From Aphrocallistes beatrix (Eukaryota > Porifera > Hexactinellida > Sceptrulophora > Aphrocallistidae): a DNA stretch of 64,000 bases. The notes below the pieces were generated by a model that saw only the letters and a list, made by a program, of their open reading frames with translations, was not told the DNA's origin and made no database searches. The position numbers were made by a program, and so were the translations under genes. How positions within the stretch are numbered: the stretch's first letter is position 1; every line of letters begins with the position of its first letter. Positions 25,105 to 48,217 of the stretch are shown piece by piece. The stretch covers positions 868,001 to 932,000 of the forward strand of contig OY725489.1 of NCBI GenBank assembly GCA_963281255.1, in the 5' to 3' direction.

Positions 25105-26307
25105 CTAGCACATGGAGGAGCAGCTGGCCTGTGTGCTGCTGGAGTCTTCTACTGAGGGCATGGTGAGAGGAGAGTACTTGTCCTTCACGGCTGTGAGGAG
25201 GGTAGGGGTCTGTAGGATTTTACGTACCAACTCTTCAAAAGCTACTTGAACGTATTCGTTCAATTTTGCACTAAAAAATATTACAATACGATGACAGTTT
25301 GTACTGCTATTCCCTTTCAAGAATAAAGTCGACTCGCGACCCGATAAACCAAAACAGCCTTGAGAAACCCCAATAATTCATATTTTTAAGATTTATTTTC
25401 AACTGATTTTGTATAGTCGAAGTTTGAAATGGTTAAAAAGTTTTGTTAAGATATCCGTACGTGTGATTACCTTGTCTCAATAAACAGCATTGAATGCCTC
25501 CGAGCGAACTGTGATGCCTGTTCCCTCGTGATAGTACGCTCTTCCTAGTAAATAATGCAATTCTCCCGTAAACAATAACATCAACGTTCCTGGGTAGATT
25601 CTATTTAAGCACTACCTTTCTATCCGTCTTGTTACCAACCAGCATAGCTACGAAGTCAGGATTGGTACAGTAAGTCCCCATCTCGTTAATCCATGTTTGA
25701 AGACTGTTGAACGAGTCCACGTTAGTTGTGTCATAGACTCAAGAAGAAAATGGTCCGTAAGCTAACTTATTAATTGTGTTGGCAATTGCCGAATAAAGGA
25801 AATTCAGTGCTAATATTCTAAAACGCGGTCATAGCAGGGACAGTCACAGGAATTTCCAAGCCCTGGGCGAGGCAGGACCAAAGAAAAAAAATCTGTAACT
25901 GTTACTATGATTTGGCTTAGGTAATCGAATGAAATCCGGGGCCGCAGAATCGAACTCGGGGCAGGTGCCCCGGATGCCGCCCCCCTGGGTCATAGGCGTC
26001 GTAACCCACCCGATCATTCCGGTTAGCTATAACAGCTGAGAGCACAGCGTCCTGAGCGTTGGGGACCGGGCGGCCCAAAGGGCCAACCATAAAATTACGA
26101 CGCCTATGGGAACCCAAAGGAGTGACTAAGAAATGACAGCTTTCATTCTTATGAAAATTTCAGTTTTATCCATCATGAGGTGTGAGGTGTTTTCATCATA
26201 AAATTTGCCATATTTTCTATGAAATAAAACTAACCAATAATAACACCGTGAGCTCCTCTGTAATAAGACGGAGTTAAAGTTCTGAAGCGTTCCTGGCCTG
26301 CCGTGTC
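25105..26307 (-). CDS. RAB18: RAB18 exons 4-7 (3' part)
   Basis: Exons 26235-26307, 25616-25737, 25471-25544 and 25105-25270 on the minus strand. They encode DTAGQERFRTLTPSYYRGAHGVII (switch II and G3), VYDTTNVDSFNSLQTWINEMGTYC and MLVGNKTDRK (G4, NKxD), then REQASQFARRHSMLFIETSAK (G5, ETSAK) and a C-terminal tail. All junctions are GT-AG and keep frame with exons 1-3 at 47908-48217; the total is 206 residues, the same length as vertebrate Rab18. Family knowledge: Rab18 acts at the ER and lipid droplets. The tail ends SCSSMC rather than a plain CaaX or CC box, so the prenylation signal is unusual. Confidence 0.9.
25991..26108. repeat. Short TIR element in RAB18 intron 4
   Basis: Perfect 14-bp inverted repeats CATAGGCGTCGTAA and TTACGACGCCTATG about 118 bp apart. 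Next to it, on the minus strand, GAGTTCGATTC resembles a tRNA-type B box, so a tRNA-derived SINE is also possible. GC-rich compared with its surroundings. Confidence 0.5.
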
Positions 26308-26433
26308 CTATTTAACGATAATAAGACAGAGTATAAATCAATGATAAAATGCTGAATATAATATCTCACACAAAATTCACCATAATACATGCATATTTAT
26401 AAATAGCAACACTTATTTATACAAACATTCCAT

Positions 26434-27540
26434 TCATTCCCATGCACGAATAAGAGGATTCGTAGTATCTGAAAAAGCAGAATATCTATAGCGGCCATTC
26501 TTATACATCATATACCGAGAAATGGCGTAATACAGAGCCATGCAGATATTGGTCACGAGCACGGTCAGTAAGAATATGCCAGCTGTGAGTGTGCGGAAAC
26601 ACCAACTCAGGATCGTTACTAGTTCTAGCGCCTGTTTGCTGTACTCTATCTGCGGAATGTTCAAGTGATAAGAGTAATTGAACCAGCATGGGTTTTTAAG
26701 TATGTTAGAAATCAATTGTTCGACAAGGTCAACAATCTGACCTAAAAGCAAAGGCTGGAAAGTGATGGCAATAGGCAACATTGTAATCTTGAAGTGTTTA
26801 AGTATTCTCACTTCTTTCTTATAGCGATATGAGTTTACTGATACTTCAAACCCTAAGTCATCCACTTTTCTTTTCATTAAGCGGTAGAAGAGAACGCAGT
26901 AGCGTGCAGTAATGACGTAGATTATTTGTGTGGCGAAATAGAACGCGAAGTAACCGAATAGATAGCCTTGTGGGAACGAGTTCAATGCGAAGATAAGTAG
27001 AGCTACAATCACAATACAAACTATTCTGTATTTTAAGAAAGAGACGTTAGTTCTTTTAACTGTATGAACGTAGTAGAGGTATGCTAAAACGAGGTAGATG
27101 AGAGATATTTCTGTGAATGTTAACATTTGCCTTATCCCGTCTAATGCCCAGGAGTATATCCCACGTTTGTATGCATTAATGAATGAACGATGGGTCACGT
27201 TGCACGAAGGAGTGAGATGGTACACATGTTTAGATTCGAAAATAAAATCCAGTTTTATGAGAACTAGCACCAATGACGTCATTACATCCAGAAACAAGAA
27301 AATGATCAATAGTACGTTCTTAACCAATTTCACTTTATAATTGTCTCTTGAGTATGTTTGTGCGTTGTAATGTAGAGGCCATTGCTTCCATATATGGTAT
27401 GATTTCTTTGCCGCATGAACCAAAAAAATAATCCAGATGATGGACAGAAAACTCGTCAGGGTAACGAGTACTGTGAATCCATATTCAAGATATCTGCCAA
27501 TCTCACTTAAGAAGAAAAATACTCCAATCGAAAGAACCAT
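26434..27540 (-). CDS. 7TM receptor-like protein, NPCW family, member a
   Basis: 368 residues, single exon, seven predicted membrane helices. Helix 1 is followed by the basic segment KKSYHIWKQW. The loop between helices 2 and 3 has the Cys and sequon SCNVTHRSF. Helices 4-5 carry LFGYFAFYFATQ, and the helix 6-7 loop has LKNPCWFNYSYHLNIP. The C-terminal tail ends near TNPLIRAWE. Basic residues lie in loops 1-2, 3-4, 5-6 and the tail, so the predicted topology is N-outside, as in GPCRs, with the two conserved Cys on the outer face. No DRY, NPxxY or other class A motif. Unrecognised family; a chemosensory or other receptor role is only an inference. Same strand as the host RAB18 gene. Confidence 0.8.
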   Translation of the reverse strand: MVLSIGVFFFLSEIGRYLEYGFTVLVTLTSFLSIIWIIFLVHAAKKSYHIWKQWPLHYNAQTYSRDNYKVKLVKNVLLIIFLFLDVMTSLVLVLIKLDFIFESKHVYHLTPSCNVTHRSFINAYKRGIYSWALDGIRQMLTFTEISLIYLVLAYLYYVHTVKRTNVSFLKYRIVCIVIVALLIFALNSFPQGYLFGYFAFYFATQIIYVITARYCVLFYRLMKRKVDDLGFEVSVNSYRYKKEVRILKHFKITMLPIAITFQPLLLGQIVDLVEQLISNILKNPCWFNYSYHLNIPQIEYSKQALELVTILSWCFRTLTAGIFLLTVLVTNICMALYYAISRYMMYKNGRYRYSAFSDTTNPLIRAWE

Positions 27541-27599
27541 TGCTCTATAATGATGAAGATATCTCCCATCTCTAATAAATAGATACTTTTTGCTGATAA

Positions 27600-28674
27600 T
27601 ATGAAGGGACGTTTTATAAAGGAATTTTCAATGATGTGTTTTACGTAATACTATGGACTACGGTTGAGCAATATGGTGAACTCTTCTACTGCTAATAAAT
27701 GCTGAGGAATATTAGTTAAATAAGAATAACTGAAACTTAGTACGTACTAAGCATATTCATAATACAACTCTGAGGTAAATGTCCTCGTCAAGGATAATCT
27801 TATCAGATTGGTTTATTTCGTTATTTTCTATAAATTGCATTGCTCAGCAGAATTACGTGAAGAATAATAGAATGTTGATGTGGTAATTAATTAATTAATA
27901 TTGGAAATAGCTTGATTGCTCAAGTTTGCGAGAACAAGTGTAATAAAGCACTTTCAAATATGACTTCATTAATACTCAGCATTAGTAGCTGAATCTTACT
28001 GAATATTATTCCATCTTATTCTACCTTAAAATCTGCTAAAAAACTTTCAAACTTATGTCAACTTCGTGGCACAGACAATTCATTGAACAAGTATTTTAGA
28101 AAATTATCTTCCATAAACACGTATGGATATGATGTAATTAATAATAGTAGAAACAGTGGCACACTTTTAAAAACAGCAACATCTGGATAACTGCATTCTG
28201 CACTTAGCAGAATTCAAAGATAACGCATTAATTAACTTGGAAATTTACACTGCAAAAATCTCATCTTTCAACACAGTATTGCAATGAAGGTGTTAAAATA
28301 TGAATATACGCTTATACAAAACATAAGTTAAGGAATTTCGCGTAAAAATGGATCGGGCAGTTAGATTTCGTAAGATCGCGTATACGGAAGAATGCTATTA
28401 TAGGAGCCGCACTAAAATTGAAAATAATGAAATTATGGCTTCCTATATGATCGAAAATAACACGAGGCGTCCCTCTATGACTATGTTACGAGTAGATTTC
28501 AAATTTCACACTTGTAAAGTTATAACAAGATTATTGCCCTGATGTAATAACATCCCTCTAGTCACTTACACGAGCTGTACACAGGTCTGTGGACCGACTT
28601 ACTATTTATTATTAATATTTAATGAATCAAATAAGCCATTACATCAAATACATTTAACACATAGTATTATAAAA
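27600..28674. other. Gene-free stretch in RAB18 intron 3
   Basis: AT-rich, no supported feature. A 64-codon open frame at 28348 shows nothing recognisable. Confidence 0.4.
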
Positions 28675-29778
28675 CTACACTAAAAGTCTCTGTTTGACAT
28701 TTCTTTTGAAACATATGGGACACAGATTGTAGAATCTGATTTCCAGACAAATTCTCTTCCAAATGACTCGACTAAAATAACACAAACTGAGGAGCATAAT
28801 AGATGAGCTGAGCGTAGATGCAGCTATGGTGCGTAGTATCCACACTGAATAGGATATTGTGTAGAAAATATGTTTATTGATGGGAAGTGTTGGAATATCC
28901 ACTTTAAATTCACTTTGTATCCAACATGGATTCAGAAAGAATGTTTCCAATACTAAGACTACGAGTAAATATAAGATTAAAGTGAAGACGTAGAATTGAA
29001 ACCCCACGTATATCGAGAGAATAGCTCTCTTCGATTGTTTCAACTTCGTTTCTAATCTTTGAGGAGCTGGATTCCGTAGAGACATTTCATGTTTGAGATC
29101 ATTAGCGTACCAAAACACACTTTTGTAAAGGCGTGAATAATCGCGACAAAGCTGGACTAAAAGTATCTGCATAAATATGACAGATATTCCGAAGCCGAGA
29201 ATATATGTTCTCTCATACGAACATAGCACCAAAACGATGTTAGCAATGGTCAGGCCTGGAATTATTTTGAAAATCAATTTCTTGATAGTTTCTCGCCTTT
29301 TCAAATAGATTTGTTCTAAATGCAGAATCACCAATCTGTAAATATTCAGGTCAACAATAATGGAAAATTGTCTGAATCCTTCGAGAAACCAGTTCGAATA
29401 GCTAACCGAATAAAAATCATTCAACCAAGTTTGCTTATCAAGAGTACAGTTCTGGTTGAGAGTGAACGTTGTATTGTTCGATTTCCACTTTCGTGCGAAT
29501 GAAGATTGAGTTATAAAACAATCAACTATGTTAGCCAGCTCTACAAGAACTATCATCAGGAGTAGAATATTCCTGATCAACTTGTTCCTACTGTTGGTGA
29601 GATCTACATCCGAACTTTTGTACTGGTTCCTTACTTGATATTTCCAAACATGATAAGCACGCTTTATTTGAAAAATACAGAAGATTACCCATGCGATTAA
29701 AACTAATATAAATAATGGGCAGAATGTCCACATGGCAATATCCGCAAGATAGCCAAACTGTCTCACATTGTAAATCAT
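28675..29778 (-). CDS. 7TM receptor-like protein, NPCW family, member b
   Basis: 367 residues, single exon. Helix 1 is followed by IKRAYHVWKYQ. The outer loop has NCTLDKQTWLNDFY (conserved Cys in a sequon), the helix 4-5 hairpin contains YILGFGISVIFMQILLV, and the helix 6-7 loop has FLNPCWIQSEFKVDIPTLP. The tail (SLCYFSRVIWKRI...CPICFKRNVKQRLLV) carries an extra CPxC pair not seen in the other members and lacks the usual PLL ending. Predicted N-outside. Member a lies 1.1 kb away on the same strand. Function unknown. Confidence 0.8.
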   Translation of the reverse strand: MIYNVRQFGYLADIAMWTFCPLFILVLIAWVIFCIFQIKRAYHVWKYQVRNQYKSSDVDLTNSRNKLIRNILLLMIVLVELANIVDCFITQSSFARKWKSNNTTFTLNQNCTLDKQTWLNDFYSVSYSNWFLEGFRQFSIIVDLNIYRLVILHLEQIYLKRRETIKKLIFKIIPGLTIANIVLVLCSYERTYILGFGISVIFMQILLVQLCRDYSRLYKSVFWYANDLKHEMSLRNPAPQRLETKLKQSKRAILSIYVGFQFYVFTLILYLLVVLVLETFFLNPCWIQSEFKVDIPTLPINKHIFYTISYSVWILRTIAASTLSSSIMLLSLCYFSRVIWKRICLEIRFYNLCPICFKRNVKQRLLV

Positions 29779-29812
29779 TTTGCTGTTCTGTATGATTTGC
29801 TATTGTGCGCCT

Positions 29813-29819
29813 TTATATA
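29813..29819 (-). promoter_or_regulatory. TATA box of 7TM member b
   Basis: TATATAA followed by AGG, about 35-40 bp upstream of the ATG at 29778. Confidence 0.6.
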
Positions 29820-29986
29820 CTGTCTTTACTTGTGCCGTAACTAAATTTTGAAATTCCACCATGGCATATTTGCAAATGTGGATCGTCGACAAATATTTCC
29901 ATGTGACAACGAAGCAAATAATTTTACACACAACTTTCATAATCCCTGATATCATCATATATAGGTATTATAATAATTGATTAGTT

Positions 29987-30046
29987 GGGTCAGGATGGGT
30001 CAGGAAGGGTCAGGAAGGGTCAGGATGGGTCAGGATGGGTCAGGAT
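29987..30046 (+). repeat. 10-bp tandem repeat GGGTCAGGAT
   Basis: Six units of GGGTCAGGAT or GGGTCAGGAA in a row. Confidence 0.85.
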
Positions 30047-30332
30047 TTTTTTCTCCTATAATGCCATCATATATTAATCGTAATTTTTATTGATTACCAA
30101 TAAATACATTGATGAAAATAAGTAAGAAATATTTCTATTAGATTTATGCACGAGACAAATTAAGGCGTTTCAATTTTATCCATTTTCAGTAGCAAACACA
30201 TATTACGTTATCTTGGTAAAGTCGATAATATATCAATAATTATATTAGAAGGTAAGGGAACTCTTTTCTTACATGGTATTTATCCATTTTAGATTATGGT
30301 TAATTGAATTCTCTATGTTTCTGTTTTTTTCA

Positions 30333-30508
30333 GATAGGCTACTTTTTAGTATGGATTCGCAGTACTACTCGTTACCTTGGCTTTTCTGTCCATTATATGG
30401 ATTATCTATTTGTTTTAGGTCGTAAAAAAATCCTACCATATATGGAAGCTATGGCCTCTACAAATGCACAAACATACTCAAGAGACAATTATAAAGTGAA
30501 ATTGTTCA
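30333..30508 (+). pseudogene. Truncated 5' fragment of a 7TM gene (member a relative)
   Basis: About 175 bp align, in opposite orientation, with the 5' coding part of member a. The match runs from its helix 1 through ATATGGAAGC-ATGGCCTCTAC and TCAAGAGACAATTATAAAGTGAAATTG, encoding NAQTYSRDNYKVKL. Indels break the frame before this block, and the gene ends abruptly at a foldback element. A dead duplicate. Confidence 0.8.
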
Positions 30509-30519
30509 AAGGTAAAAAC

Positions 30520-30719
30520 GGCGTAGAGATATCGAGATCAAAATTGAAAAATGCAAAAAAGTCGACTCTTTCGTACCGGAATGAGGTTGAGATTTACAGT
30601 TTACAACCAGAAACCCCATCAAACACTCTTTTGGGGATTTTGGTAGTAAACTGCAAATTTCAAAATCATTCCGCACGAAAGTGGGATTTTTTAACAAATT
30701 TTCAATTTAGATCTCTGCC
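30520..30719. mobile_element. Foldback MITE next to the 7TM fragment
   Basis: Imperfect inverted arms of about 80 bp. GGCGTAGAGAT and ATCTCTGCC are the tips; further in, GGAATGA...GAGATTTACAGTTTA pairs with ...AAACTGCAAATTTC...TCATTCC. It directly abuts the truncated 7TM fragment. Confidence 0.65.
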
Positions 30720-32710: not shown

Positions 32711-33853
32711 CTATTCAGCATTAATCAGCGATTGTTTCAAATCTGAATCTTCAGTTCTCCGATTCTTGTACAGTTTATTCACCAAGAGACGCAATTTGGG
32801 TATCAAAACGAGCACAATACTAAAGATGACGAAGCCATACAAATATAAGCTTGCCATTACATCGCGAAAAATGATAAGATACTCGGTCGAGGCGACTACA
32901 CTATCAAGAGTGTCCTTTGAGAGCTGGAAATTTAACGGGATTTTATATACATGTTTAAACCAACAGGGGTTGAGCAAAATGGAATACAAGAAAATGACGA
33001 TGAACGTATAGACCAAATCCCCAACCCATTTGCAAGCGAACAGTACCAGGATGGAGGAAATTAAAAGCCTATTTCTATTGATCGTCTCCTCATCGTGTCC
33101 GAGCTGTTCAGTATCATCACCATTATTTTCAACTTTGGAGACCGAATCATTTTTTTTCTCTCTCAAAACTTTATCAAAACGCCAAACATTCCGCACGATG
33201 GGTATGTATAGTAGGAAGAGCAACACTGAGAACAGAAGACTGCCAAACACTGCGGTTTGTATCACGACAGAAAGAATGAATGTCACCCCTACTAGGCTGA
33301 CGGTAAAGATGATCGGACGGACGTATCTAATCTGATTTAATGACTTCCGATATGCCTTCACCAACACATTGAACAACCACATGAAAATAGCTAGCGAGAG
33401 AACGGTGCAGGAGTACCAAAGTGCGTGGTATATGCGATATCTTGTAGGGAAGATGTAGAGACGGAAGAGCCAACCTTGTTCTAGTGTACAGTCTGGTGAG
33501 ATGTTGTATTGGGCCTGCATATGACGGTACTTCTTCTCATGAACTACTATGTATGCACACATGCCGAATGCCTGACAGAGAAACACACTAATGAAAAAAC
33601 CAACCAGAAAGCCGTTTTTCAAAACCTCAACTTTGTATCTGTACTGCTTATCGTAAGCTTCCATGTCAGGAGTGCGCTGCTTTGAGATCAAATAGGATTG
33701 CTTAACATTGAGGAAGAGCTGCCTGATGAAGTAGATGGTCCAGGCTAACACGGCGAGAGCCTGGATGATTATCATCACACCGAGCATTTTACTGTAAGGC
33801 CGGTAGCCCTCAATGTTTGGAAATTCGTGTGCATGCGATTCATTGAAATCCAT
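32711..33853 (-). CDS. 7TM receptor-like protein, NPCW family, member d
   Basis: 380 residues, single exon. After helix 1 there is a long basic loop with YLISKQRTPDMEAYDKQYRY. The outer loop holds the conserved Cys in DCTLEQGWLFRLY, helices 4-5 run through FGSLLFSVLLFLLYIP, and the helix 6-7 loop has LLNPCWFKHVYKIPLNF. Loop 5-6 is the most acidic and variable of the family (NNGDDTEQLGHDEETINR). The tail ends SDLKQSLINAE. Predicted N-outside 7TM. It is head-to-head with member e, about 850 bp apart. Function unknown. Confidence 0.8.
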   Translation of the reverse strand: MDFNESHAHEFPNIEGYRPYSKMLGVMIIIQALAVLAWTIYFIRQLFLNVKQSYLISKQRTPDMEAYDKQYRYKVEVLKNGFLVGFFISVFLCQAFGMCAYIVVHEKKYRHMQAQYNISPDCTLEQGWLFRLYIFPTRYRIYHALWYSCTVLSLAIFMWLFNVLVKAYRKSLNQIRYVRPIIFTVSLVGVTFILSVVIQTAVFGSLLFSVLLFLLYIPIVRNVWRFDKVLREKKNDSVSKVENNGDDTEQLGHDEETINRNRLLISSILVLFACKWVGDLVYTFIVIFLYSILLNPCWFKHVYKIPLNFQLSKDTLDSVVASTEYLIIFRDVMASLYLYGFVIFSIVLVLIPKLRLLVNKLYKNRRTEDSDLKQSLINAE

Positions 33854-34696: not shown

Positions 34697-34707
34697 TTGG
34701 GTCACAA

Positions 34708-35838
34708 ATGAAAAAAAACCAGACTAATCAAAAACAAATGGAGAAGCAAATACCTTACAAAATATTAAACTCCTTGCTGCTTACAAATTTCGTTTTAAGC
34801 ATAATCATTTCGCTGGGATGGCTCACTTATTTTATTTTCAAGACAAAAGATGCACTAAATCAGCTGCGCGGTTTAAAAAAGAGACCGAAAGATCCAGAGA
34901 ATAACATCAGAACATCTCGTATTAGAAACGACTACTACAAAAGTATCATATTCATCTATTACCTCGTGATAGAAGGTGCGCTGCTTTCGTGCATGCTAGT
35001 GGAATGCATCTACGAAGTAGTGAGCACACACAGCCCTGTTACCACAGATTATAACTGCACCATAGCGAGGGAGAGTTATCTCCAGGCAAGGCACGACTAC
35101 ACATTCGCGATTATACTCTCGACTCGTCGAGGGCTCGCTGTCTATCTAACGCTAGTTTTCGTGCTTATTCTGTACTATTTTTACAAAATATACAAACTCA
35201 AAGAACGGTTTAGGTACAGCATGAGAGAGGCTAAATGGTTGTTGGTAACAATGATACCTGCCTTCTTTGTAACAGTCACTACTCTGACACCATGGACAAT
35301 ATTAATCGACTGGATTACGAATGGAATTATACTAGAAATCGTTTATTTCATCGGTGTATACTATGCTAAGAAGGTGAATGCGTATTTAGTGATGAGACAA
35401 CAAGATCTAATTCATGCCTACGAGATAGATAGATTCACGGTTAAGCAGCACTCAAGTCAGATCAGACAGTACAAGATGTTCCTCAAACCAATCTTCATAC
35501 TCGGGCAATACTTGATTCTTTCAAAAGTCCTTGATGAGTGCGTAAAAGAATGTGTAGGGACGGTAATACTCAACCAGTGCTGGGTAGAAAAAACCTTCAA
35601 AATTCCGTTCAAGTTTGAAGCAACTGCTTACATAAAGAAAGTGTATTACATTCTGAAGTTAGCAGTTTCAGCTAATATTGCATTAGCATTGTTGCTTTTC
35701 ACAGGGACACTAATCATTTTAAATTTAATTCTGATTTGGAACAACTTGAAATGGAGAAGAAATCAGTATCAGTATACCACCAGTTACAAGGCTTCAACTC
35801 CTCTATTAGCTAACCATAACTTTCCACATGAATATTAA
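34708..35838 (+). CDS. 7TM receptor-like protein, NPCW family, member e
   Basis: 376 residues from the first ATG, 366 from the ATG at 34738 favoured by the TATA position. Helix 1 ends ISLGWLTYFIFKTKDALNQL. The outer loop has YNCTIARESYLQARHDY, and helices 4-5 hold TPWTILIDWITNGIILEIVYFIG. The helix 6-7 loop has ILNQCWVEKTFKIPFKF, so the family NPCW is NQCW here. The tail ends TPLLANHNF, the common TPLL motif. AATAAA at 35871 is a plausible polyadenylation signal. N-outside predicted. Opposite strand to the host RAB18. Confidence 0.8.
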   Translation: MKKNQTNQKQMEKQIPYKILNSLLLTNFVLSIIISLGWLTYFIFKTKDALNQLRGLKKRPKDPENNIRTSRIRNDYYKSIIFIYYLVIEGALLSCMLVECIYEVVSTHSPVTTDYNCTIARESYLQARHDYTFAIILSTRRGLAVYLTLVFVLILYYFYKIYKLKERFRYSMREAKWLLVTMIPAFFVTVTTLTPWTILIDWITNGIILEIVYFIGVYYAKKVNAYLVMRQQDLIHAYEIDRFTVKQHSSQIRQYKMFLKPIFILGQYLILSKVLDECVKECVGTVILNQCWVEKTFKIPFKFEATAYIKKVYYILKLAVSANIALALLLFTGTLIILNLILIWNNLKWRRNQYQYTTSYKASTPLLANHNFPHEY

Positions 35839-36107: not shown

Positions 36108-36317
36108 ATACGTGTACATACTACTATGTATATGTTGCTGCTAAAACGTCTAATCAGTTACGTATTATGTAAAATATCTGAAGATTTCAGGCGCAAAATA
36201 ACTGATGGAAAAAGCCTGGGAATTTCAGGTATTATACATAATAACTGATTTGACGTTTTAACTCTGTAACATATATCCTTACTATTACTAAAACTCGATT
36301 AATGTTTGTATATATAC

Positions 36318-37650
36318 TAGGGCATTCAAAAAGTCTTGCGGGTCACTACCATAAAATAATAAATAAATGTCATAGAATATGTTTCAATGTATTATTTATT
36401 CGAAATACCCCCCTCATAATTCTACACAGCATTTCAATCTTTCCACCTACTTTATGAATGCATTTCTGTACTCTTCTTCGGGGATGGATTTGAAGCAGTG
36501 GTACAGGGCCGACCCGAGGGTTTGTTTCGGCTCAAGTTCCCTGCCTGAAGGTAGATTTTGAGCTTGGGGAATAGCCAAAAATAACAGGGAGCTAGGTCTG
36601 GTGAGTAGGGTGGGTGGGGAAGTAAATCTAACCCCTCTGATTCCAAGAAATTTTTAGTGAGCTTGGCTGTATGGGAGCTAGCATTATCTATCAATAATTT
36701 TATTCCCCTCGTTTTAGCCTTGGCTCGGAGCTCTTCCGCGTTTTTGATTAGGTTTGGAAGTACTTTCTCTGTAAAAAACGTTGCGTTTACTGTTTTACCA
36801 CTTTCAGAAGGTATTTGCAAGACTATTCCACTACTATTGAAGAAAATCGGGTACATGACCTTCGGTTTTCTGAAGTCGGGCCTAGGAATTTGGGCCGGTC
36901 TTTCGTCCCCTCTCACCCATGATCGCATTTTATACTTGCTGTAAGGGGTTGAATAATAGACCCAAGTCTCATCCCCGGTTATAACTTTAGCTAGGCGTCT
37001 AGGATCACAACCGTCATAGGTTTCCAGGAGTTTCTTGGCAGTCTTTACACGTGCGAGCTTTTGTTGATCGCCGAGGTTATGTGGGACCCACTTACCGCAA
37101 ATGGATCGGAAACCAAGCTGAGTAGTCAGAATGGAATGAATGGCCCCCGATGAAATCTCCATACTCTGCTCTAACTGCTCGATTGTTATACACTTATCTT
37201 CCCTGACTTTGCTCTCGATTAGAGCAACATTCTCTGGGGTGCTGACGGACACCGGTCTCCCAGATCGAGGTAGATCTGACACGTCTGTATTTCCAGACTG
37301 AAATCGTGCAGCCCATTGCTCAACCGTTGATCTGGAAGGGCAGTCCATGCACAATACCTCCTGCAACTCATTGTAGATGAGTACCGGCTGGATGCGGAGT
37401 TTTGTGCGAAACTCAATGTAAGCTCTCCATTTCAGATTAAAATTGTCATCCTTGGAAGCCATAATTTTACCAGTATGTTGAAATGATGTGTGAATAAATT
37501 GATCAGAAATTTGTAATTTTCATTCAATCAAGCTAAGATTTTCAGTAAATCAAGCTAAGATATAAGGTTGTGTTATAGATGAAAACCGATTAGTTTACTA
37601 TTATAGTCTGCGAAATATACCATGACCCGCAAGACTTATTGAACGCCCTA
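36318..37650 (-). mobile_element. Mariner element, 1.33 kb, TA-flanked
   Basis: The element at 36320-37648 has termini GGGCATTCAAAAAGTCTTGCGGGTCA and, inverted, GGGCGTTCAATAAGTCTTGCGGGTCA (24 of 26 identical). TA lies on both sides. Full-length mariner size. Confidence 0.9.
36395..37462 (-). pseudogene. Mariner transposase, inactivated
   Basis: The open frame runs 37462-36452. It has the N-terminal helix-turn-helix region (MASKDDNFNLKWRAYIEFR), GDETWVYY (first Asp) and LLIDNASSH (second Asp). It then has PYSPDLAPCYFWLF, where the third catalytic Asp, 34 residues on, is Tyr. After KLKIYLQAG the frame shifts; the correct frame continues as LYHCFKSIPEEEYRNAFIK and then has stop codons at positions where Trp and Gly-rich sequence is expected. 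Active-site loss plus frameshift plus stops make it a dead copy. Confidence 0.9.
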
Positions 37651-38381
37651 GTATATATATATATATCTGTTATGAATTGATTGAAGAAACTGCCAGGCAC
37701 AGAAAGCTGTTTTTTTGCATGTGGGAGTCTTTTGGCTATGGCTCCAGTAAGTTCTGAGCTCAGACCAAAATGTCGACTCATCATGGAATTATGACGTCAT
37801 TGTCACATTTTTAAAAGTTAAGTAACACAGTTATTCGGGCATAACTCAGCCATTATAGGAGATAGAAGGCTGAAATTTTAATAGAATCTTTATACTAACA
37901 CGCCTCACATATGATGCAACTATCATCAAAAAATGATGACTCATCACTTTGTTATGACGTCATCATTACTCATCAAAATTTAAAAATTGACAAATTTGGT
38001 GATTTTTGAGTGATATCGATTTTAAAACTAAGATGTACATATTTAGAGACGATATCTCCCTTATAATTAACCAATGTCACCTCCAGGCGACCGAAGGGAG
38101 CCTCCGGCGGACACTTCGTGTCCGCCAGCCGCGCAGCACAAGCAAGCGAAGCGCGCTTGTACGTATATATATATACAAGTACATTTACATATATTCGGTA
38201 TTACGTGAGATTATGCCTAAAAAGGATATAATATTACCGGATGTATTTTCCTGAAATATCATTATTTAACCAATGTGATTCTAAAAATAAATTTGCACAT
38301 AAATATTACGGTCATGTGCCACAGAGTAAATCGAGTGCGGTAAGTACGGTATATAGCAATATTATGCATGCAAAAATACTG

Positions 38382-38421: not shown

Positions 38422-39555
38422 ATGCGTTTGAATTTACTACTTCATTATGCATATGAGGTTGAGCAGTATACGTTAATCGTGGGGGTACCTACAACTATAT
38501 TGATCTCATGTCTGTGGCTACTGTATTTCTTGAGGCAAGCTCGACTGAACTATAAGCAATGGAACAGAAATCGAAAATGTAACGAAACTGAGAGTCTCAA
38601 AAGAAAAATGTTCTTCAACAAAAGTGTGTTGATAATCTTCTTACTGGTGGCAGATATCATCATTTTCGCAGGATCTTTTGTCGAGACTTGTTCAACCTTC
38701 ATTGAAATAGGGAATCTGACGGACCAACTAATGCTTCCTGATTATCCCGGCTGCACAGTTCGAAAGCACACCTGGCTAGCAACAATCGTATACGAACGCG
38801 GCAACAGCTCATCCTACCTGGAAGGGATATGGCAGTCGGCTCTACTAGCTGAGTTCTGCATTTTCATTGCTATTCTACGCTATTTCTGGCGTATTTCTAT
38901 CGAACAGAACCCACATAAAGAACGCCAAGATTATTCATTAAAGAAAGATACTCTGTTCATTCTTCTTATCATCTTCCCCCAATCAATATTGATACTGTGG
39001 TTCGATGCTTCACCGTCGATGATAATGATAGGCCATCTTGTATTCGGGATAATGATGGTTATATATTCTGTTGTTGGAGTGAGATCATCACAACAACTCT
39101 ATCGACAACTCAAATGGAATAACGCAGATCTGAAACTTCATTTTCATTCAAAAGTTGAGCAGAGAAACGATTCGTACAACCTCAAAATGTACAAATATTC
39201 AACTATAGCTATCATCATAACAGCGCTACTGTACGTAACTGCGGAAGTTTGCTACATTATTTTCAATGTATGGATTGGGACTATCCTCCTAAATGCTTGC
39301 TGGTTCAATAAGCAATATACGTTTATGCAGTTGGAATTCGCGATGAGTATGAATCAAATATATCAATACAGACGCGTCACCTATTGCATGGCGATTTTCC
39401 GCAATGGTGCGCAGATTATATTCATCATATACGTGCTGTCGCTCAATGCTGTGTTCTTTGTGGTGGAATTGATAAGGAGGAGGAACCTCAAAAAATTATT
39501 ACGTGAAAAGCCTTGGGAGGGTCTCAACAAACCCCTCCTCGAAAATGCACCTTAG
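38422..39555 (+). CDS. 7TM receptor-like protein, NPCW family, member f
   Basis: 377 residues, single exon. Helix 1 is followed by LNYKQWNRNRKC. The outer loop has the family Cys in GCTVRKHTWLATIVY with nearby sequons, helices 4-5 contain MIMIGHLVFGIMMVIYSVVG, and the helix 6-7 loop has LLNACWFNKQYTFMQLEF, an NACW variant of NPCW. The tail ends LNKPLLENAP, carrying the PLL motif. N-outside by charge distribution. Its promoter starts only ~220 bp after the split dispersed repeat. Function unknown. Confidence 0.8.
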   Translation: MRLNLLLHYAYEVEQYTLIVGVPTTILISCLWLLYFLRQARLNYKQWNRNRKCNETESLKRKMFFNKSVLIIFLLVADIIIFAGSFVETCSTFIEIGNLTDQLMLPDYPGCTVRKHTWLATIVYERGNSSSYLEGIWQSALLAEFCIFIAILRYFWRISIEQNPHKERQDYSLKKDTLFILLIIFPQSILILWFDASPSMIMIGHLVFGIMMVIYSVVGVRSSQQLYRQLKWNNADLKLHFHSKVEQRNDSYNLKMYKYSTIAIIITALLYVTAEVCYIIFNVWIGTILLNACWFNKQYTFMQLEFAMSMNQIYQYRRVTYCMAIFRNGAQIIFIIYVLSLNAVFFVVELIRRRNLKKLLREKPWEGLNKPLLENAP

Positions 39556-40266: not shown

Positions 40267-40269
40267 GAC

Positions 40270-40953: not shown

Positions 40954-42096
40954 ATGAACTATTCAAATTCGTCGCAAAACACATTTCACTACGTTCTCGT
41001 TTACGGAACACTCGGCCCCTTTTCAGTGGTCAATTCAATCACCCTATTACTATCAATTGGCTGGATTATTTACATCTACGGTAAAATTATAAAAAGCTAT
41101 CGTCTGTGGAAGCATTATGAAAAAACTTATAAATACCAAACCCAGTATCGAGACCCAATTCGTTTCCATAGAAACGCTCATATTAGGAATGTGCTAATAT
41201 TAATCTTCCTAATTTTAGAAGTAAGCACTATACTTTTCATGCTAATCGATGGCATATACGCGGAATTAGTTGTAAAAACTAAAAGAGTCGAATTTACAGA
41301 TAATTGTTGGATAGAAGAGGCCACATGGCTCTCAGCTAAATTCATCCCACAATACACATTCTTCCACATTACAGAAGCTGGATGGCAGGCCATGGCCATC
41401 ACTGAACTATCCATTTATAATTTGATCTTTATTGTCCTCATCCAAACATATAGTCACAATCACAACGAAAAATCTCACTTTAGAAAATTAGCAGTGTTTT
41501 ATATACCATTACAAGCTGTATTGTTACTTGCGCTGAATACGTATTCTAAAACGATATTGTTTGGGAAATTATTGTTTGCAATCTTACTACAACTCCACAT
41601 TATTTTCAACATGTGGTTCTCCAAGACGCTCTGGTCGCGACTTAAGCGACACCAAATCGACATGAGTTACTTCGCAGACACAGCATCGCGAGAGTACAAG
41701 ACATTCGGACGTGTCACAGAGAGGTACAGAATTGTCCAAATAAGCAACATCCTGCTTCTACAGTGCATATCCATCACCATTATTATATTCACAGTCGTAA
41801 ACGTGTTTGGAGGAACGATACTACTAAATCCATGCTGGATTGAACAGGTCTACGGCATACAACTGCCCAGACTCAGGAATGCTATAAACACGCGGGTGTT
41901 TAGAGACATTTCATACTTAGTAATCATACTGCGTGATTGGAGCGTGATGATATACTACATTTACATTATCGTCATTACAATTGGGATTGCCGCAGCATAT
42001 GTAAAGTCTAAGAAGGTTAAGAAATCCAAGTTCTCTGGATATTCAGAATTAACTACGCCACTGTGTCAAGGAACTAATAGATTCGCCTTAATTTAA
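40954..42096 (+). CDS. 7TM receptor-like protein, NPCW family, member g
   Basis: 380 residues, single exon. The short N-terminus has sequons (NYS, NSS), supporting an outside location. Helix 1 ends SIGWIIYIYGKIIKSYRLWK. The outer loop has DNCWIEEATWLSAKF, helices 4-5 carry ILFGKLLFAILLQLHIIFNMW, and the helix 6-7 loop has ILLNPCWIEQVYGIQLP. The basic tail KSKKVKKSKFSGYSELTTPL contains the TPL motif. It is one of the most typical members and a good query for the family. Function unknown; no class A GPCR motifs. Confidence 0.8.
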   Translation: MNYSNSSQNTFHYVLVYGTLGPFSVVNSITLLLSIGWIIYIYGKIIKSYRLWKHYEKTYKYQTQYRDPIRFHRNAHIRNVLILIFLILEVSTILFMLIDGIYAELVVKTKRVEFTDNCWIEEATWLSAKFIPQYTFFHITEAGWQAMAITELSIYNLIFIVLIQTYSHNHNEKSHFRKLAVFYIPLQAVLLLALNTYSKTILFGKLLFAILLQLHIIFNMWFSKTLWSRLKRHQIDMSYFADTASREYKTFGRVTERYRIVQISNILLLQCISITIIIFTVVNVFGGTILLNPCWIEQVYGIQLPRLRNAINTRVFRDISYLVIILRDWSVMIYYIYIIVITIGIAAAYVKSKKVKKSKFSGYSELTTPLCQGTNRFALI

Positions 42097-42099
42097 ATT

Positions 42100-43465
42100 A
42101 ATATTTAATTCAATTAATTTGATTTTGTTTGTGTTGTGTATAAAGAATAATGTAAAGAATTTATTAATGCTATTTTTGTATCATAACTCCTTCAAAGTAA
42201 ATATACAGATAATGACAAAGTTTCTGATTGGAAGTTTTTAGAAAGGGAAATATTGAAAATGAACGAAAGTGGGAACCCTCTCCAAGTTAAAATATCGAAA
42301 TCACCATTTTCATACCTTTTCTATACATTTTATGTAGCTTTACTATCACGAAAGTAATAATAATTGTAGGAGTTTATCACATCGTAAAACAATGAAGAAT
42401 GGAGAAGTATATTTTCATCCCTTTTTAATTATTTTCAGACGATAAAACATATGTTTACGTTTCTCTGATTCGTTTAGAATTTTCAAGGGTTTAAGTATCC
42501 TAATTTAATTTCAGTATGTCCATAAGTTTGTTCTTAATATGCTAGAGAGCTTCACATTGTCAGGCCTGGACTTTAAGTGATGTTGATTCGAATATCAGAA
42601 GTGCATTGAAAAGATATTTTTGTGCACTAACTTTAAGAAAAAAAAGAGAATCAGAAAAATGATACGTTAGAGAGCAAATAGAGAGGAAAATATCATTAAA
42701 TATCGTATACACTCGAACATTAGCCGGCCTTCGGGTAAATGTTAATTAATAATCTTCCATCATTGGTAATTAGGGCTAAATTAATAATCACTCCGGAACA
42801 TTCGAGGATCCATGGCACACCTCAAAATAAACCCTATTTGGTGCCTTTAAATGATTTAGTTTTGATTTGCGTCTTTCTAGACAAATTGCAACCATTTCAA
42901 ATAATGATTAGAAAAGAATGATGTAGTATTTTTTTTCATAGCAAAATTAAATTCCGATCACAAGATTTATCAACACCTCATTAGAGGAATTGGAATATGC
43001 AAAATTCTACATTGCTTAATATCCTACAAGTCTGTAAAATGACCACAGAGTAATACTACAGAGTAATACAGAGTAAGATTTACACTTGCGTAAGTGGAGT
43101 TACATAGTAAAAGTTATTCTGAAAGTTATGCTTACACTATAAGTATATTCCAATCAGGGTAATTTAGTTTGGGAAAAATACCGAGCGACTTATCAGGTAG
43201 CAAACATGTAGAAAGACATTCAGAAGAATTAGCAATTAATTTTTCAGAATATATAATGTAATATTGAAAGTAGTTTAGCAAATAAACAATATCAATCAGG
43301 GATTGCTAAACATTTTCAGAACAACAAAACAACTTAGGTAGGGAATTATAGGATATATATAAAAAACATTTTTTACTACAAATATACAAGGAAAAGTTTT
43401 GATTTCTACCTCGGGAAAGTCCAGCGCTAATTCCATTAGAAATTACTTAGTAATAGTACACTCAG
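42100..43465. other. Long gene-free stretch in RAB18 intron 3
   Basis: About 1.4 kb of AT-rich DNA without a gene, transposon terminus or tandem array that I can support. Confidence 0.45.
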
Positions 43466-43469
43466 TACA

Positions 43470-43475
43470 TATAAA
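43470..43475 (+). promoter_or_regulatory. TATA box of 7TM member h
   Basis: TATAAA followed by GG, 52 bp before the ATG at 43522. Confidence 0.6.
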
Positions 43476-43521
43476 GGCAGCCAACTAATTGCCAAGATTA
43501 ATTTGAACTTATATCTCCATA

Positions 43522-44646
43522 ATGAGTCCGGAGTGGGATCACATCGTGAAAATTGTATTAGAAGGCCTATTGGGCATTACTGGGCTAACGATGTTCGTTA
43601 TCCTGACGATATGGTTGGTCTATTTCATCCGAGCGATGAGGAAATCCTTCAAGACATGGAAAGCTCACCCGAGCAACTCATACGATGAAGAACGGGGCTA
43701 TGTCGTTCGAATGGAGCTGGCGAAGTTGGTATTAATCGTTTTCTTCTTAATCACAGCAATAATTCTGTTGACAATTTTTGGTGTACAGAACTCCAATAGA
43801 TTATCCAAAATAGACAAGCATGAAGATAAAATGGATCATGATGAAGATAAGTGTAAAATTGAACCAACAAGCTGGATTTGGGATAAAGTCCATGGGAATA
43901 AATATACTAATTGGTTCAAACACGGTCAATGGCAGCCATTCGCACTTATAACTATGATCGCGTTTGAATTGGTCCTAATGCAAATTCTGACTTCGCAATA
44001 TCACCACAGCAAACGTATCTTCACTTGGCAAGTCAAGGTAACTTTCATTTTGGGCATACTAGAAGCCGCAGGGATCTTCCTACTAAACGCATTCGCAGAA
44101 TCAATACTATTCGGGCACATACTATTCATATTCCTCCTGCAGTTACACTTGATATTAATCGAATTCTGTCTGTTCAAATTGTACCGGGTGATGAAGAAAC
44201 AGATCGCAGAATTGAAACATTTGAATAGCAAAGAATACTCCGCAATTCTGACAAGCAAGAGGCATTACCAGTGTTTTATCATTCCCCAAATCATCATAAT
44301 ACACGCATGCGTAATAGTCGAGTTCCTCTACGTGATAATAATAACTGTTGAAACGATAGTCGTCAATAATTGTTGGATCGAAGAAACGTACAAACTCCAA
44401 TATTCAATGCGTATTGGGAAAGTCGGCGACTTGTCAGTCTATACCCACTGCAGATACGCCATTAGCTTGATGAGGATCACATTAATGTTCACCCTCATCG
44501 TGTATAACCTCATTTTTAATGGAATCTACTGTTTCAAAGAGTGGAAGAGCAAGCGAGAGAACAAAACCAGCAATGAATGCACTATGCAGAATAGTGATGA
44601 AATCCAAAGGCCACTGATTTCAACCAACTCTTCCAATGGAGAATAG
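43522..44646 (+). CDS. 7TM receptor-like protein, NPCW family, member h
   Basis: 374 residues, single exon. Helix 1 ends LTIWLVYFIRAMRKSFKTWK. The helix 2-3 loop is the most charged in the family (KHEDKMDHDEDKCKIEPTSWIWDK), keeping the Cys and Trp. Helices 4-5 hold ESILFGHILFIFLLQLHLILIEF, and the helix 6-7 loop has IVVNNCWIEETYKLQYS, an NNCW variant. The tail ends EIQRPLISTNSS. N-outside topology predicted. It is tail-to-tail with member i, with about 190 bp between stop codons. Function unknown. Confidence 0.8.
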   Translation: MSPEWDHIVKIVLEGLLGITGLTMFVILTIWLVYFIRAMRKSFKTWKAHPSNSYDEERGYVVRMELAKLVLIVFFLITAIILLTIFGVQNSNRLSKIDKHEDKMDHDEDKCKIEPTSWIWDKVHGNKYTNWFKHGQWQPFALITMIAFELVLMQILTSQYHHSKRIFTWQVKVTFILGILEAAGIFLLNAFAESILFGHILFIFLLQLHLILIEFCLFKLYRVMKKQIAELKHLNSKEYSAILTSKRHYQCFIIPQIIIIHACVIVEFLYVIIITVETIVVNNCWIEETYKLQYSMRIGKVGDLSVYTHCRYAISLMRITLMFTLIVYNLIFNGIYCFKEWKSKRENKTSNECTMQNSDEIQRPLISTNSSNGE

Positions 44647-44834
44647 AAGTATGTACGTATTACAAATCCAGTACTAGTAACTTGGGATAAATATGTAATT
44701 CATTAATGTTTGTATTTTAATCTGGATTGTTTACTATTATATGTAAATAACAAAACTTGTGTTTATATAAAGTTCATGCAAAATGTACTAAATGTGCAAT
44801 ACAGGAAATTAAGATGTAATTAAGATAATGGTAA

Positions 44835-45959
44835 TCAAGATGATGGAATAAGTTGGCGGGTAATTCCGCGGTTTTTAAACAGTTTCCTTCTCTGGTATTC
44901 CTGGTACATCGAACTGGAAAAGTGCCAAACATTGAGACTAATAATTGTGGTAAAGAAAATTATTCCTGTTAAGAGCCAAAAGCCACCGACTGCCATATCA
45001 AAGATGATCCAATAAAACCTGAACTCTTCGCTATTAATGATGGCTGCTGTCGTGTTCACGGGTGATACATCGATATTGTAAATTTGTGAGAACCAGCATG
45101 GGTTGCTAATAATGGAATCCGCCCATACGTAAAATATAACAGATGCCACCTGACCAAATGACACCAATAATAGACTAGCTAAAAAAGGATAAATGGTCTG
45201 CCTATACCGGTGTATCACGCGGCCTTCATTCAGTAGGATTGAGTTACTGCGGGAGTAGATGTACCCAATGTCCTGGTGTTTCCAGCCGAGAACCATGCTC
45301 AGTCTCCTTGCATACTTAACGTCTAGCACTGAGTAGATGGGAAAAACGATTATGAATAAAGTTTGCCCGAAAAGAAATGTGTACTGTGTTAAGTTCAGAA
45401 GAAAAATAATGATTCCCAATGAAAAATTTATCGACACGTGTATGACGATGTGGCGTAGCTTCATTGACCTGAATTGCGTGGTAGTATAAACCTCAATCAA
45501 GTAGAGTAAAATCCCCTCGAAAATCCCGGTTTCAATGACCATTAAGGACATACGAATGCTCTCCAATCCCCATAATGAGTGACCGCCATTATAATACTTA
45601 TAGAGCCAAGTTTCATTCTTCAGAGTGCAGTTACCTACATGATGGGGCAAACCGATATCGAAGTTCCGTAAAAGTGTTTGTGGCAGAAAACTCAGGCACA
45701 TTACAATGTCTAAAAACAGGAAAACTAAAATCAAGATATTCTTATAGAATCTATGCTTGAAGTTCTTCCCTTCATTCCACTCATCCAGCGTGTACTGTGT
45801 CATCTTGTATTTCCATGTGTGGTAGGCATAGTTCGTGTCTCTGTATATGTAGATGACCCACTGAACAGATAGTAATATTAGTATTAAAATGCAGAGGTCG
45901 AAAATGGAAAGAGAGACCATTTTGACGATAAAGAGTGCGTTTTCATCAATTTGGAGCAT
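44835..45959 (-). CDS. 7TM receptor-like protein, NPCW family, member i
   Basis: 374 residues, single exon. Helix 1 is followed by TNYAYHTWKYKMTQY. The outer loop has NCTLKNETWLYKYYNGG (two overlapping sequons), helices 4-5 carry YTFLFGQTLFIIVFPIYSVLD, and the helix 6-7 loop has IISNPCWFSQIYNIDVSP. The tail ends GITRQLIPSS without the PLL motif. N-outside topology predicted. Same strand as the host gene. Function unknown. Confidence 0.8.
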   Translation of the reverse strand: MLQIDENALFIVKMVSLSIFDLCILILILLSVQWVIYIYRDTNYAYHTWKYKMTQYTLDEWNEGKNFKHRFYKNILILVFLFLDIVMCLSFLPQTLLRNFDIGLPHHVGNCTLKNETWLYKYYNGGHSLWGLESIRMSLMVIETGIFEGILLYLIEVYTTTQFRSMKLRHIVIHVSINFSLGIIIFLLNLTQYTFLFGQTLFIIVFPIYSVLDVKYARRLSMVLGWKHQDIGYIYSRSNSILLNEGRVIHRYRQTIYPFLASLLLVSFGQVASVIFYVWADSIISNPCWFSQIYNIDVSPVNTTAAIINSEEFRFYWIIFDMAVGGFWLLTGIIFFTTIISLNVWHFSSSMYQEYQRRKLFKNRGITRQLIPSS

Positions 45960-45964
45960 TATAT

Positions 45965-46594
45965 AGATACATAGTATTCGTAGTTGGTAAAGCTATTTAT
46001 TGATCAAATCTTGTTAGTAGGTAGAAGTTAGTGCTAGAGCACAGTAGAACAGTAGGGACAATTTGCTTGAATAATAATGGCACATGCACTGATATCACAT
46101 TTCAGAGATACTTCCCCCAGTGTTATAGTTAGACCACCTATCAATATTCTTATGAAGTAATGAATATACAAATGCAGATGATATCAGGGACAATGTCTAA
46201 AGATGATATAAAATTCGGATAATGTAATTGTGTTTGCCTACTCGATTACCTGAACCGATAGCATTTATTCTAACGTCAGTCGAAATGCATTTAATTAAAA
46301 CATTATTTTTAGAAATACATAATTCAAATATAGCTAAATTCTACTTGAGTCAAGCTGATGATTGCTGGACTTAGCATCAGGTACTTTTAATTAAACCATG
46401 ATGCATCCAAATCAGGAAAAGTAAATTGTAAAAAATACTAACTAGTTTGAAGTTACATACAGACCATACGTAAGATAGTCAGAAAAGAATAATGACAATT
46501 ACATACACGACAGTAAAGAAAAAAGTAAATTAGGACAAATCATGAACTATGAAAGCATATGTATATCACAGGTTTGCTGAATAATTTTGAATAT
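45965..46594. other. Intergenic between 7TM members i and j
   Basis: No supported feature. Confidence 0.4.
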
Positions 46595-47713
46595 TTATTT
46601 TTGTAATAGCTGTTGGAATAAGGATGATTTAGCAGTATCGTAAATCATACGGATTTTGTATCGACCAGACAAGATTGAAAAAAACACAGACAAGTTCACA
46701 ATCACCACAGTAAATAAGAATATACTTCCGGTCAACAAATATATCGAATTGCCAACGGCTGTGAGAGTACTAACCAAGCTAACCGTGCTACTGCTGAAGT
46801 GTGAGATATGGAGTAGGTTGTTGTACAGTGAGTTGAACCAGCATGGGTTGAGTACTATGGAACCTAAGCATGCATTGATTACGATGTATAAAACCTGACC
46901 AACTATCCCTATGGTAGCGGTAATGTATATGCTGATAGTAGTCCGTTTAAATAGAACAATCTGCTTGCGTTCCCTTATATATAGCCATTGCAACTCCGTT
47001 TCAGCATGAAACAGGTCATCTTTTCGCTGTTTCAAGCTCCTATACAGTTCCTGTGTCCGGCGAATGAGAGGGATAAATAGAGCGGGGAGAGATACGGCGT
47101 ATATGACTTCTGAAATGAGAAAAGTAGCTGGAAATAGCCTCGTGAAAATGAACAGGAATATGATAGCAATAGTTACTATGATAAAACGTTGGATGGTTTT
47201 ACGCATAGAGGTTTTCGAGTATATGGATTGGATATGTAGAGTCAACACTATGAGGAGTACAGGCAAGATGATCATGCCAACTTGTCGGAGAGACTCGGTC
47301 AAGAAGACAAGAGGGTAATTCTTGTTCCACCAAAGAACTGTATTGACTCTAAGCGTACAGTAACTATCAGTGCCATTATTAGTACTGTTAAGTGGAGTGT
47401 TTTTCAATGGTGTCGTAGCGGATGCTCGTGTGATGCCTTGTACTATCTCGAGAGAGAAAGTCGCCAGTTCTGTAATGGCAAAGATCAAAGCTATAATGAA
47501 TTTAATGAGATTGTCTTTATAATTTTTCGCTGTTGAGACTGCTTCTTTGGAATGGAGGAGAGTTTGATACTTCCAAAGAGGGTACAACCTCTTGATTTCT
47601 GAAATGATATGCACTGTCCATACGAGCGAGCAGAAAATCAAGGCAACAGAAGATATGTTGAGTGAAACCGTGATCACCTCGTGTAATGTGCTGATAAAGA
47701 GAAGAAATGACAT
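46595..47713 (-). CDS. 7TM receptor-like protein, NPCW family, member j
   Basis: 372 residues, single exon. Helix 1 is followed by IKRLYPLWKYQTLLHSK. The outer loop is long with several sequons, then YCTLRVNTVLWWNKNYP. Helices 4-5 contain ATFLISEVIYAVSLPALFIPL, and the helix 6-7 loop has IVLNPCWFNSLYNNLLHI. The tail ends SSLFQQLLQK. N-outside topology predicted. Its ATG lies only ~195 bp from exon 3 of RAB18, so its promoter sits at the very 5' end of the host intron. Function unknown. Confidence 0.8.
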   Translation of the reverse strand: MSFLLFISTLHEVITVSLNISSVALIFCSLVWTVHIISEIKRLYPLWKYQTLLHSKEAVSTAKNYKDNLIKFIIALIFAITELATFSLEIVQGITRASATTPLKNTPLNSTNNGTDSYCTLRVNTVLWWNKNYPLVFLTESLRQVGMIILPVLLIVLTLHIQSIYSKTSMRKTIQRFIIVTIAIIFLFIFTRLFPATFLISEVIYAVSLPALFIPLIRRTQELYRSLKQRKDDLFHAETELQWLYIRERKQIVLFKRTTISIYITATIGIVGQVLYIVINACLGSIVLNPCWFNSLYNNLLHISHFSSSTVSLVSTLTAVGNSIYLLTGSIFLFTVVIVNLSVFFSILSGRYKIRMIYDTAKSSLFQQLLQK

Positions 47714-47751
47714 TTCAATAATTTGGGTTAAGTTAGCATAACCAGTCTATT

Positions 47752-47760
47752 ATATATACT
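47752..47760 (-). promoter_or_regulatory. TATA-like element of 7TM member j
   Basis: TATATATAA about 40 bp upstream of the ATG at 47713. Confidence 0.5.
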
Positions 47761-47907
47761 TGATTTCAATTACGATAAGACTCTGAAATGCAACGTGTTA
47801 TCTTGATTCTGCAAACAGAATAGTGTATATTATCCCATATGCTAAGCCCGAGGTAGTTATATCATATCCATAACTAACAACAATGGAAAATAAATAGGAT
47901 TACTCAC

Positions 47908-48217
47908 CCAAATGTTTAATCTCACATTCTGTCCGTCGATTACAGATAGTCTGACTTTATAGTCTACCCCTATAATACACAAAACAGAAGAGATTATGTA
48001 TTATCCTAGCACAGCATTGGATATGATGGAAATTACCAATTGTGGAAGGTTGATCTGAATCGTAGTAGTTGTCAGTGAACCTCAATAGCAAGCTAGAGAA
48101 TCAGCAAAAGTAAGAATTCTGAAAAAACATTGCATAATCTGCTTATTACCTTGACTTGCCCACCCCGCTATCTCCAATCATGAGGATTTTGAGTGAGATC
48201 TCTTCCCTTTCTGTCAT
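47908..48217 (-). CDS. RAB18: RAB18 exons 1-3 (5' part)
   Basis: Exons 48150-48217, 48037-48092 and 47908-47969 on the minus strand. They encode MTEREEISLKILMIGDSGVGKSS (G1 P-loop), LLLRFTDNYYDSDQPSTIG (switch I and G2 Thr) and VDYKVRLSVIDGQNVRLNIW (interswitch). The small introns have GT-AG ends and preserve frame. The sequence stops exactly where exon 4, 21.6 kb away at 26307, takes up with DTAGQER. No other G3-encoding exon is visible nearby. A CAG acceptor-like site 25 bp upstream of the ATG suggests an untranslated exon or trans-splice site. Confidence 0.9.

Follow-up and report, generated by a model that had tools for sequence, protein, structure and literature searches.

Clusters of related genes kept together within a single intron of a host gene have been described before. 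In the excerpts of the published accounts that are used throughout this text, the insect TipE/Teh cluster, which encodes sodium-channel auxiliary subunits, occupies the last intron of CG18675, where D. melanogaster has four members together with VhaM9.7-c, and the expression profiles of nested and host genes are poorly correlated (PMC3240667). Similarly, in Drosophila most of the GMC oxidoreductase family, a family of enzymes, is found in one large intron of Flotillin-2 (Flo-2) (PMC3240667). In the glass sponge Aphrocallistes vastus, 2,432 of 19,578 genes are nested, 12,409 transcripts are single-exon, and there are tandem lineage-specific clusters; three large clusters are described, and the only one given a function carries AIG1 domains (PMC10282587). 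These features resemble the case discussed here, but the main text uses the word "receptor" 0 times (PMC10282587). The locus in question is a window of 64,000 nucleotides from Aphrocallistes beatrix (G000:C2:868001-932000, in a genome of 100.5 Mb and 28 contigs), in which nine one-exon genes for seven-transmembrane (7TM) proteins are nested within a single 21.6-kb intron of RAB18. As in the insect clusters, several paralogues share one host intron, but here they are nine genes with a predicted G-protein-coupled receptor (GPCR) fold in place of channel subunits or enzymes. The architecture alone is ordinary, as nested clusters are already known; the unusual part is the predicted GPCR-fold family, for which the searches made gave no name. 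Probably, the locus is a long-standing local group of genes from a large receptor family, situated inside the stretched intron of an intact RAB18 and made up of autonomous, chemoreceptor-like genes.

RAB18 is located on the minus strand and is made up of seven exons: 48150-48217 (with the ATG at 48217), 48037-48092, 47908-47969, 26235-26307, 25616-25737, 25471-25544, and 25105-25270, which includes the stop. Splicing yields a protein of 206 residues with the reading frame kept, and all six introns (57, 67, 21600, 497, 71, and 200 bp, in order) have GT-AG borders. The third intron (26308-47907; 21,600 bp) follows the donor TTGG/gtgagt and contains no N, and the nine nested open reading frames (ORFs) account for 47% of its length. 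Among solved structures, the spliced protein matches Rab18 first (1x3s, E 1.4e-67) and YPT1 second (1.2e-51). A genome search with this protein recovered its own exons and no second RAB18 among the 150 candidates scored, the best place outside the window reaching 48% identity. A partial exon at C8:103547 (60% identity over 93 residues) was considered as a second copy and rejected, being closest to Rab1A (1.7e-51, as opposed to 5.5e-35 for Rab18). The initial annotation had joined exons 1 to 3 and 4 to 7 across the 21.6-kb gap, had placed nine 7TM genes between them, and had looked to a second complete RAB18 as counter-evidence; its observation is confirmed as a whole. The evidence supports one intact RAB18 that holds nine related 7TM genes in its intron, and the nine, being related genes within one intron of an intact host, form an intron-nested paralogue cluster. 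As a separate observation, the protein encoded through exon 7 (25105-25270) ends in ...CSSMC, with cysteine last, unlike the CaaX-like end of vertebrate Rab18.

The nested genes, numbered g1 to g9 along the window, are one-exon ORFs of 367 to 380 residues. Five are on the host (minus) strand, namely g1 (26434-27540, 368 residues), g2 (28675-29778, 367), g3 (32711-33853, 380), g8 (44835-45959, 374), and g9 (46595-47713, 372), and four are on the opposite (plus) strand, namely g4 (34708-35838, 376), g5 (38422-39555, 377), g6 (40954-42096, 380), and g7 (43522-44646, 374). By comparison, stop-free runs reach at most 230 codons in 200 samples generated from the intron by a first-order Markov model. 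A simple scan finds 6 to 8 hydrophobic peaks per ORF, and in 8 of the 9 there are sequons within the first 135 residues, mostly at the N-terminus or in extracellular loop 1 (ECL1); g5 has further sequons at 54 and 66, close to where the first inner loop is predicted. A tblastn search of the window with all nine gave no match outside intron 3 and one relict inside it. The earlier claim that no 7TM gene of this family lies outside the intron therefore holds within the window, but it fails genome-wide, where a search for further copies, as the initial annotation had itself proposed, gives approximately 236 loci.

Searches with g6 and g8 recover the other eight nested genes (E 9e-6 to 2e-22) along with one-exon genes on other contigs. 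After merging all genome searches, the roughly 236 loci, truncated copies included, are spread over contigs C1 to C20, and approximately 227 of them are outside the RAB18 intron. For this count, start coordinates were entered by hand from rows with E values up to about 1e-5, and starts within 1150 bp were merged. The rows counted were 10 of 18 and 10 of 19 for g6 and g8, and 41 of 45, 107 of 107, 34 of 39, 108 of 108, and 5 of 6 for five further members; three 78-bp fragments at 1.1e-6 were left out of the 34-of-39 search. The total is inflated by truncated copies and deflated by the scoring of the best 107 of 448 and 109 of 288 candidates. Two of the queries, L043 and L026, first appeared at E 0.32 and 3.76 and owe their membership to hhalign profile links; without the 37 loci reached through them (32 and 5), approximately 199 remain. 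The profile of the nine is linked to the L040/L039 branch with 99.5% probability, to the C16 branch with 99.0%, and to the L025/L026 pair with 96.8%, whereas the unrelated multi-pass ORF at 57406-58704, a 7TM-like candidate from the window that was rejected as a member, reaches only 0.1%. That ORF has a TATA-like box at -41.

Many family members are found in arrays, with 53 loci at C1:10.88-11.16 Mb, 25 at C2:1.07-1.24 Mb, 22 at C16:226-279 kb, and 13 at C13:4.07-4.14 Mb, and singletons are numerous. In these searches, the neighboring C2 loci on either side of the nested nine fall at 261,533 and 1,066,467, about 150 kb separating the nine from the next. At G000:C16:240533-246835, three members are 100% identical over 365 residues with a period of 2,604 bp, which points either to very recent tandem duplication or to a repeat in the assembly. 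In an alignment of 24 members, W38 in transmembrane helix 1 (TM1) and C119 in ECL1 are invariant and M2 is nearly so; among 36 members, the TM1 tryptophan is present in 33, the ECL1 cysteine in 35, and a cysteine in ECL3 in 32. The ratio of nonsynonymous to synonymous change (dN/dS) is 0.19 to 0.61 in six of eight family pairs, two of these six having dS above 1.3, and every pair comes from outside the nested nine.

A Pfam scan of the nine and of 24 members gave no credible match; the 24 produced eight weak families at E up to 1, with no GPCR family among them. The family profile found four matches among PDB sequences, none credible (best E 0.065). Protein database searches, in which shared 5-residue words were needed and the best 8000 candidates were scored, so that distant relatives may escape notice, gave no match shown to be from another species. 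The first returned two matches, both of them window genes (g1 and g4), and the second returned three, of which P0004 is one residue off g6, P0005 equals L039 by eye, and P0006 is 100% identical within the same genome. The third returned 41, all from the source "ena", with 24 of them on contig(s) of 1,739,404 bp; two of the 41, P0006 and P0007 (100% to L040), were checked for identity to the source genome. The literature search found, in the excerpts it covered, no described family resembling this one.

Predicted models from two branches of the family form a seven-helix bundle in the GPCR arrangement (for g6, AlphaFold pLDDT 85.2 and pTM 0.82), and all 50 fold rows listed by Foldseek are GPCR-type receptors; as these come from the 1000 top-ranked chains, matches to other folds may exist. 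By this modeled arrangement, the family would belong to the GPCR superfamily. It does not resemble class A in detail, as none of the 24 members scanned matches Pfam 7tm_1, and the class A disulfide between TM3 and ECL2 has no counterpart here, the conserved cysteines being those of ECL1 and ECL3, while in the g6 model ECL2 spans roughly 4 residues. Compared with the class A receptors NTSR1 (6pwc) and CX3CR1 (7xbx) and with TAS2R4 (9m8k), the family is only 6 to 12% identical in the rows listed.

The nested cluster appears to be old and not the product of a recent burst, since the other eight nested genes are just 15 to 24% identical to the first and their end branches measure 1.4 to 2.1 changes per site (tree median 1.36), whereas 21 of the 22 loci in the C16 array are 62 to 100% identical to one member. 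Local duplication within the intron has taken place, as an inverted partial copy of g1 persists on the plus strand at 30350-30513, with two arm pairs that are 84% and 94% complementary. Alternatively, the nine may stem from repeated independent insertions into the intron and not from one founder, which we regard as possible but doubtful. The low identity fits such a history, as does the free tree, which needs three changes, with the nine forming one group in 0% of 200 bootstrap trees; in addition, one outside gene outranks the two weakest nested genes in one of the g6 and g8 searches and the weakest one in the other. On the other hand, constraining the nine to a single group gives a p-AU of 0.415, label shuffles need 8.3 changes on average with 0 of 500 as low as three, and g6 and g8 each find another nested gene as their best match. 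The tree is thus compatible with a single founder but does not demonstrate one. Of the earlier proposal that a 7TM gene entered the intron and multiplied there, local duplication is borne out by the relict, and the single entry is a compatible reading.

The initial annotation had also suggested that receptor expression may be tied to the chromatin or transcription of the host. In one form of this idea, host-strand copies would be cut from the RAB18 pre-mRNA by spliced-leader trans-splicing, a process reported in A. vastus, where 4% of long reads carry a predicted leader (PMC10282587). Such dependence is unlikely. The nesting itself points toward it, and five of the nine genes have no TATA-like box in a strict stretch upstream, but four of the nine are on the opposite strand, and approximately 227 relatives reside elsewhere in the genome. 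The poor correlation of nested and host profiles in the TipE cluster (PMC3240667) is neutral to negative for the idea. Furthermore, a TATAWAD box is present 30 to 62 nt above the ATG in four of the nine (shuffle mean 1.16, with 15 of 1000 shuffles reaching four) and in 9 of 13 other members (shuffle mean 1.10, 0 of 1000), the near-copies L037, L041, and L042 having been removed from an original 16. In a wider stretch, from -110 to -25, TATA-like boxes are found in seven of the nine and 12 of the 16 others, compared with 9.5% of random non-coding intron pieces. Both strands are used, and boxes stand above some of the nested genes and a majority of the others examined; the coupling hypothesis is unsupported, and autonomous transcription, as judged from sequence, would be the simplest reading. 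The earlier interpretation is accordingly retained for the intact RAB18, the nested nine, and local duplication and finds no support for family confinement and the tie to host transcription; what deserves further attention is the unrecognized receptor family.

It is quite unlikely that the family is instead a transporter or a channel-like seven-helix protein, for example kin of the insect-type chemoreceptor channels. No G-protein motif has been shown and Pfam gives no GPCR match, both of which would suit such a protein, but the fold rows listed for the two models, from the 1000 chains aligned, are GPCR-type throughout. The channel families 7tm_6 and 7tm_7 have no Pfam match in the 24 members and do not appear in the Foldseek rows listed, beyond which such a match may exist. 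It is very improbable that the two blocks of RAB18 exons belong to no single gene, with the cluster left intergenic by a join in the assembly or a break in the gene: the intron is indeed large next to the other introns of the gene (57 to 497 bp) and to the 516-bp mean for one scaffold of A. vastus (PMC10282587), but it has no N, its gene has six in-phase GT-AG junctions, both halves are intact with no second copy among the scored candidates, and g1 and g4 are each recorded in the database on a contig of 832,915 bp, a match in size only that is silent on the RAB18 halves.

Several points weigh against an old cluster of autonomous, chemoreceptor-like GPCR-fold genes. The nested nine are too divergent for dN/dS. 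The models were built from 24 and 30 sequences of a single species without templates, a shared fold gives no function, and the class A motifs DRY and NPxxY are not conserved in the 24 members. As for the promoters, only four of the nine satisfy the strict stretch, and TATA-like boxes also appear on the reverse strand. There, the strict stretch has them in 1 of 9 nested and 4 of 13 other members and the wider stretch in 3 of 9 and 7 of 16, which means that part of the signal is due to A+T richness and the near-palindromic form of the box. Nor is the box specific to the family, as 10 of 13 other window ORFs have one within 200 nt (in one case at -168). Among the window ORFs, two AIFM3-like genes and a CHD1 gene, described below, have none.

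The chemoreceptor-like reading draws on the many one-exon receptors, their arrays, their divergence under constraint, and the lack of large extracellular domains. By analogy, the size of the family, its single-exon genes, its tandem arrays, and its divergence would suit a repertoire of environmental chemoreceptors. The vertebrate OR, TAS2R, and V1R repertoires are similar in having one exon, arrays, many members, and strong divergence; no sequence kinship to them was found, and sponges are without neurons. Under the reading as an old cluster of autonomous receptors, every nested gene would be transcribed independently, in many cases from a core promoter of the TATA type, and the RAB18 transcript would be spliced over the whole nested block. 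The proteins would span the plasma membrane with an extracellular N-terminus, a disulfide may link the cysteines of ECL1 and ECL3, and a ligand bound in the helix bundle would lead to G-protein signaling. Compact one-exon genes may simply be tolerated in the intron and duplicate locally, with no coupling to RAB18 needed.

If correct, some 200 or more GPCR-fold genes that Pfam does not recognize would amount to a large receptor repertoire in a nerveless animal and a candidate sensor set for glass sponges. These animals conduct action potentials through syncytia, and conventional monoamine receptors were not found in Oopsacas minuta in the excerpted account (PMC10280926). The family would also allow the evolution of intron-nested and open-array copies of a fast family to be compared. 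More tentatively, it may be a separate GPCR class limited to glass sponges, in which an ECL1-ECL3 disulfide replaces that of TM3 and ECL2 and several hundred one-exon external chemosensors serve an animal without neurons, with introns of housekeeping genes, RAB18 among them, sheltering divergent old members while exposed arrays turn over.

Nesting recurs in the family. Of four singletons whose surroundings were inspected, one is clearly nested, two are suggestive, and one is not. The clear case, L066 (the same locus as L051; C20:206033), is a member of the C16 branch without the aligned ECL1 cysteine and is antisense between exons matching adjoining positions 211-276 and 274-305 of Pfam AAA_34, which we take to be strawberry notch. 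Of the suggestive cases, L065 is flanked by ORFs, one with a PDB match to WD repeats and another with a match to designed propellers only, while the four L065 pieces gave no Pfam match and one of the three tried gave no PDB match; L063 is between coiled-coil ORFs, one matching CCCAP. The fourth, L064, was rejected, as it is between two separate genes identified by eye, presumably 6-phosphogluconolactonase and a polymerase subunit. Inspection of the C16 array flanks by eye, with no scan made, found no host gene.

RAB18 intron 3 also contains a mariner-like element on the minus strand (36302-37666), with a transposase ORF at 36452-37519 and 44-nt inverted repeats (36302-36345 and 37623-37666) that are 89% complementary. 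Elsewhere in the window, six one-exon ORFs at 2140-13506, on both strands, appear related by eye (a signal peptide and a cysteine near the mature start), and three scanned with Pfam had no match. A pair of ORFs from a second secreted family at 14046-16108, one of which was scanned with Pfam and had no match, shares near-identical upstream DNA with TATATAA. Tandem one-exon ORFs follow at 19698-21302 and 22823-24625, the second matching Rieske and pyridine nucleotide oxidoreductase domains; both are presumably AIFM3-like. A CHD1-type chromatin remodeller of 1812 residues occupies one open frame at 51202-56640.

Contig C28 is the mitochondrial genome (17,996 bp), with its recognized genes on one strand (cox1 by Pfam, the rest by eye) in the order cox1-cox2-atp6-cox3-nad2-nad5-nad1-cob-nad4-nad6. 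AGA is found at serine sites and ATA at presumed isoleucine sites; the reading frame of cox3 is broken behind the TGG at codon 140, whereas that of nad6 is continuous. In the excerpted account of glass sponge mitochondrial DNA (mtDNA), genes are on one strand (A. vastus), AGR encodes serine, AUA is preferred for isoleucine, and the block atp6-cox3-nad2-nad5-nad1-cob is present; in A. vastus, nad4 is beside nad6, and both cox3 (position 140, UGG) and nad6 have a +1 frameshift (PMC2267718). C28 shares the one-strand genes, the serine reading of AGR, the gene block, and the cox3 break at codon 140, but of the two only A. vastus has the nad6 frameshift (PMC2267718). In these respects, the mtDNA appears to be that of a glass sponge near Aphrocallistes.

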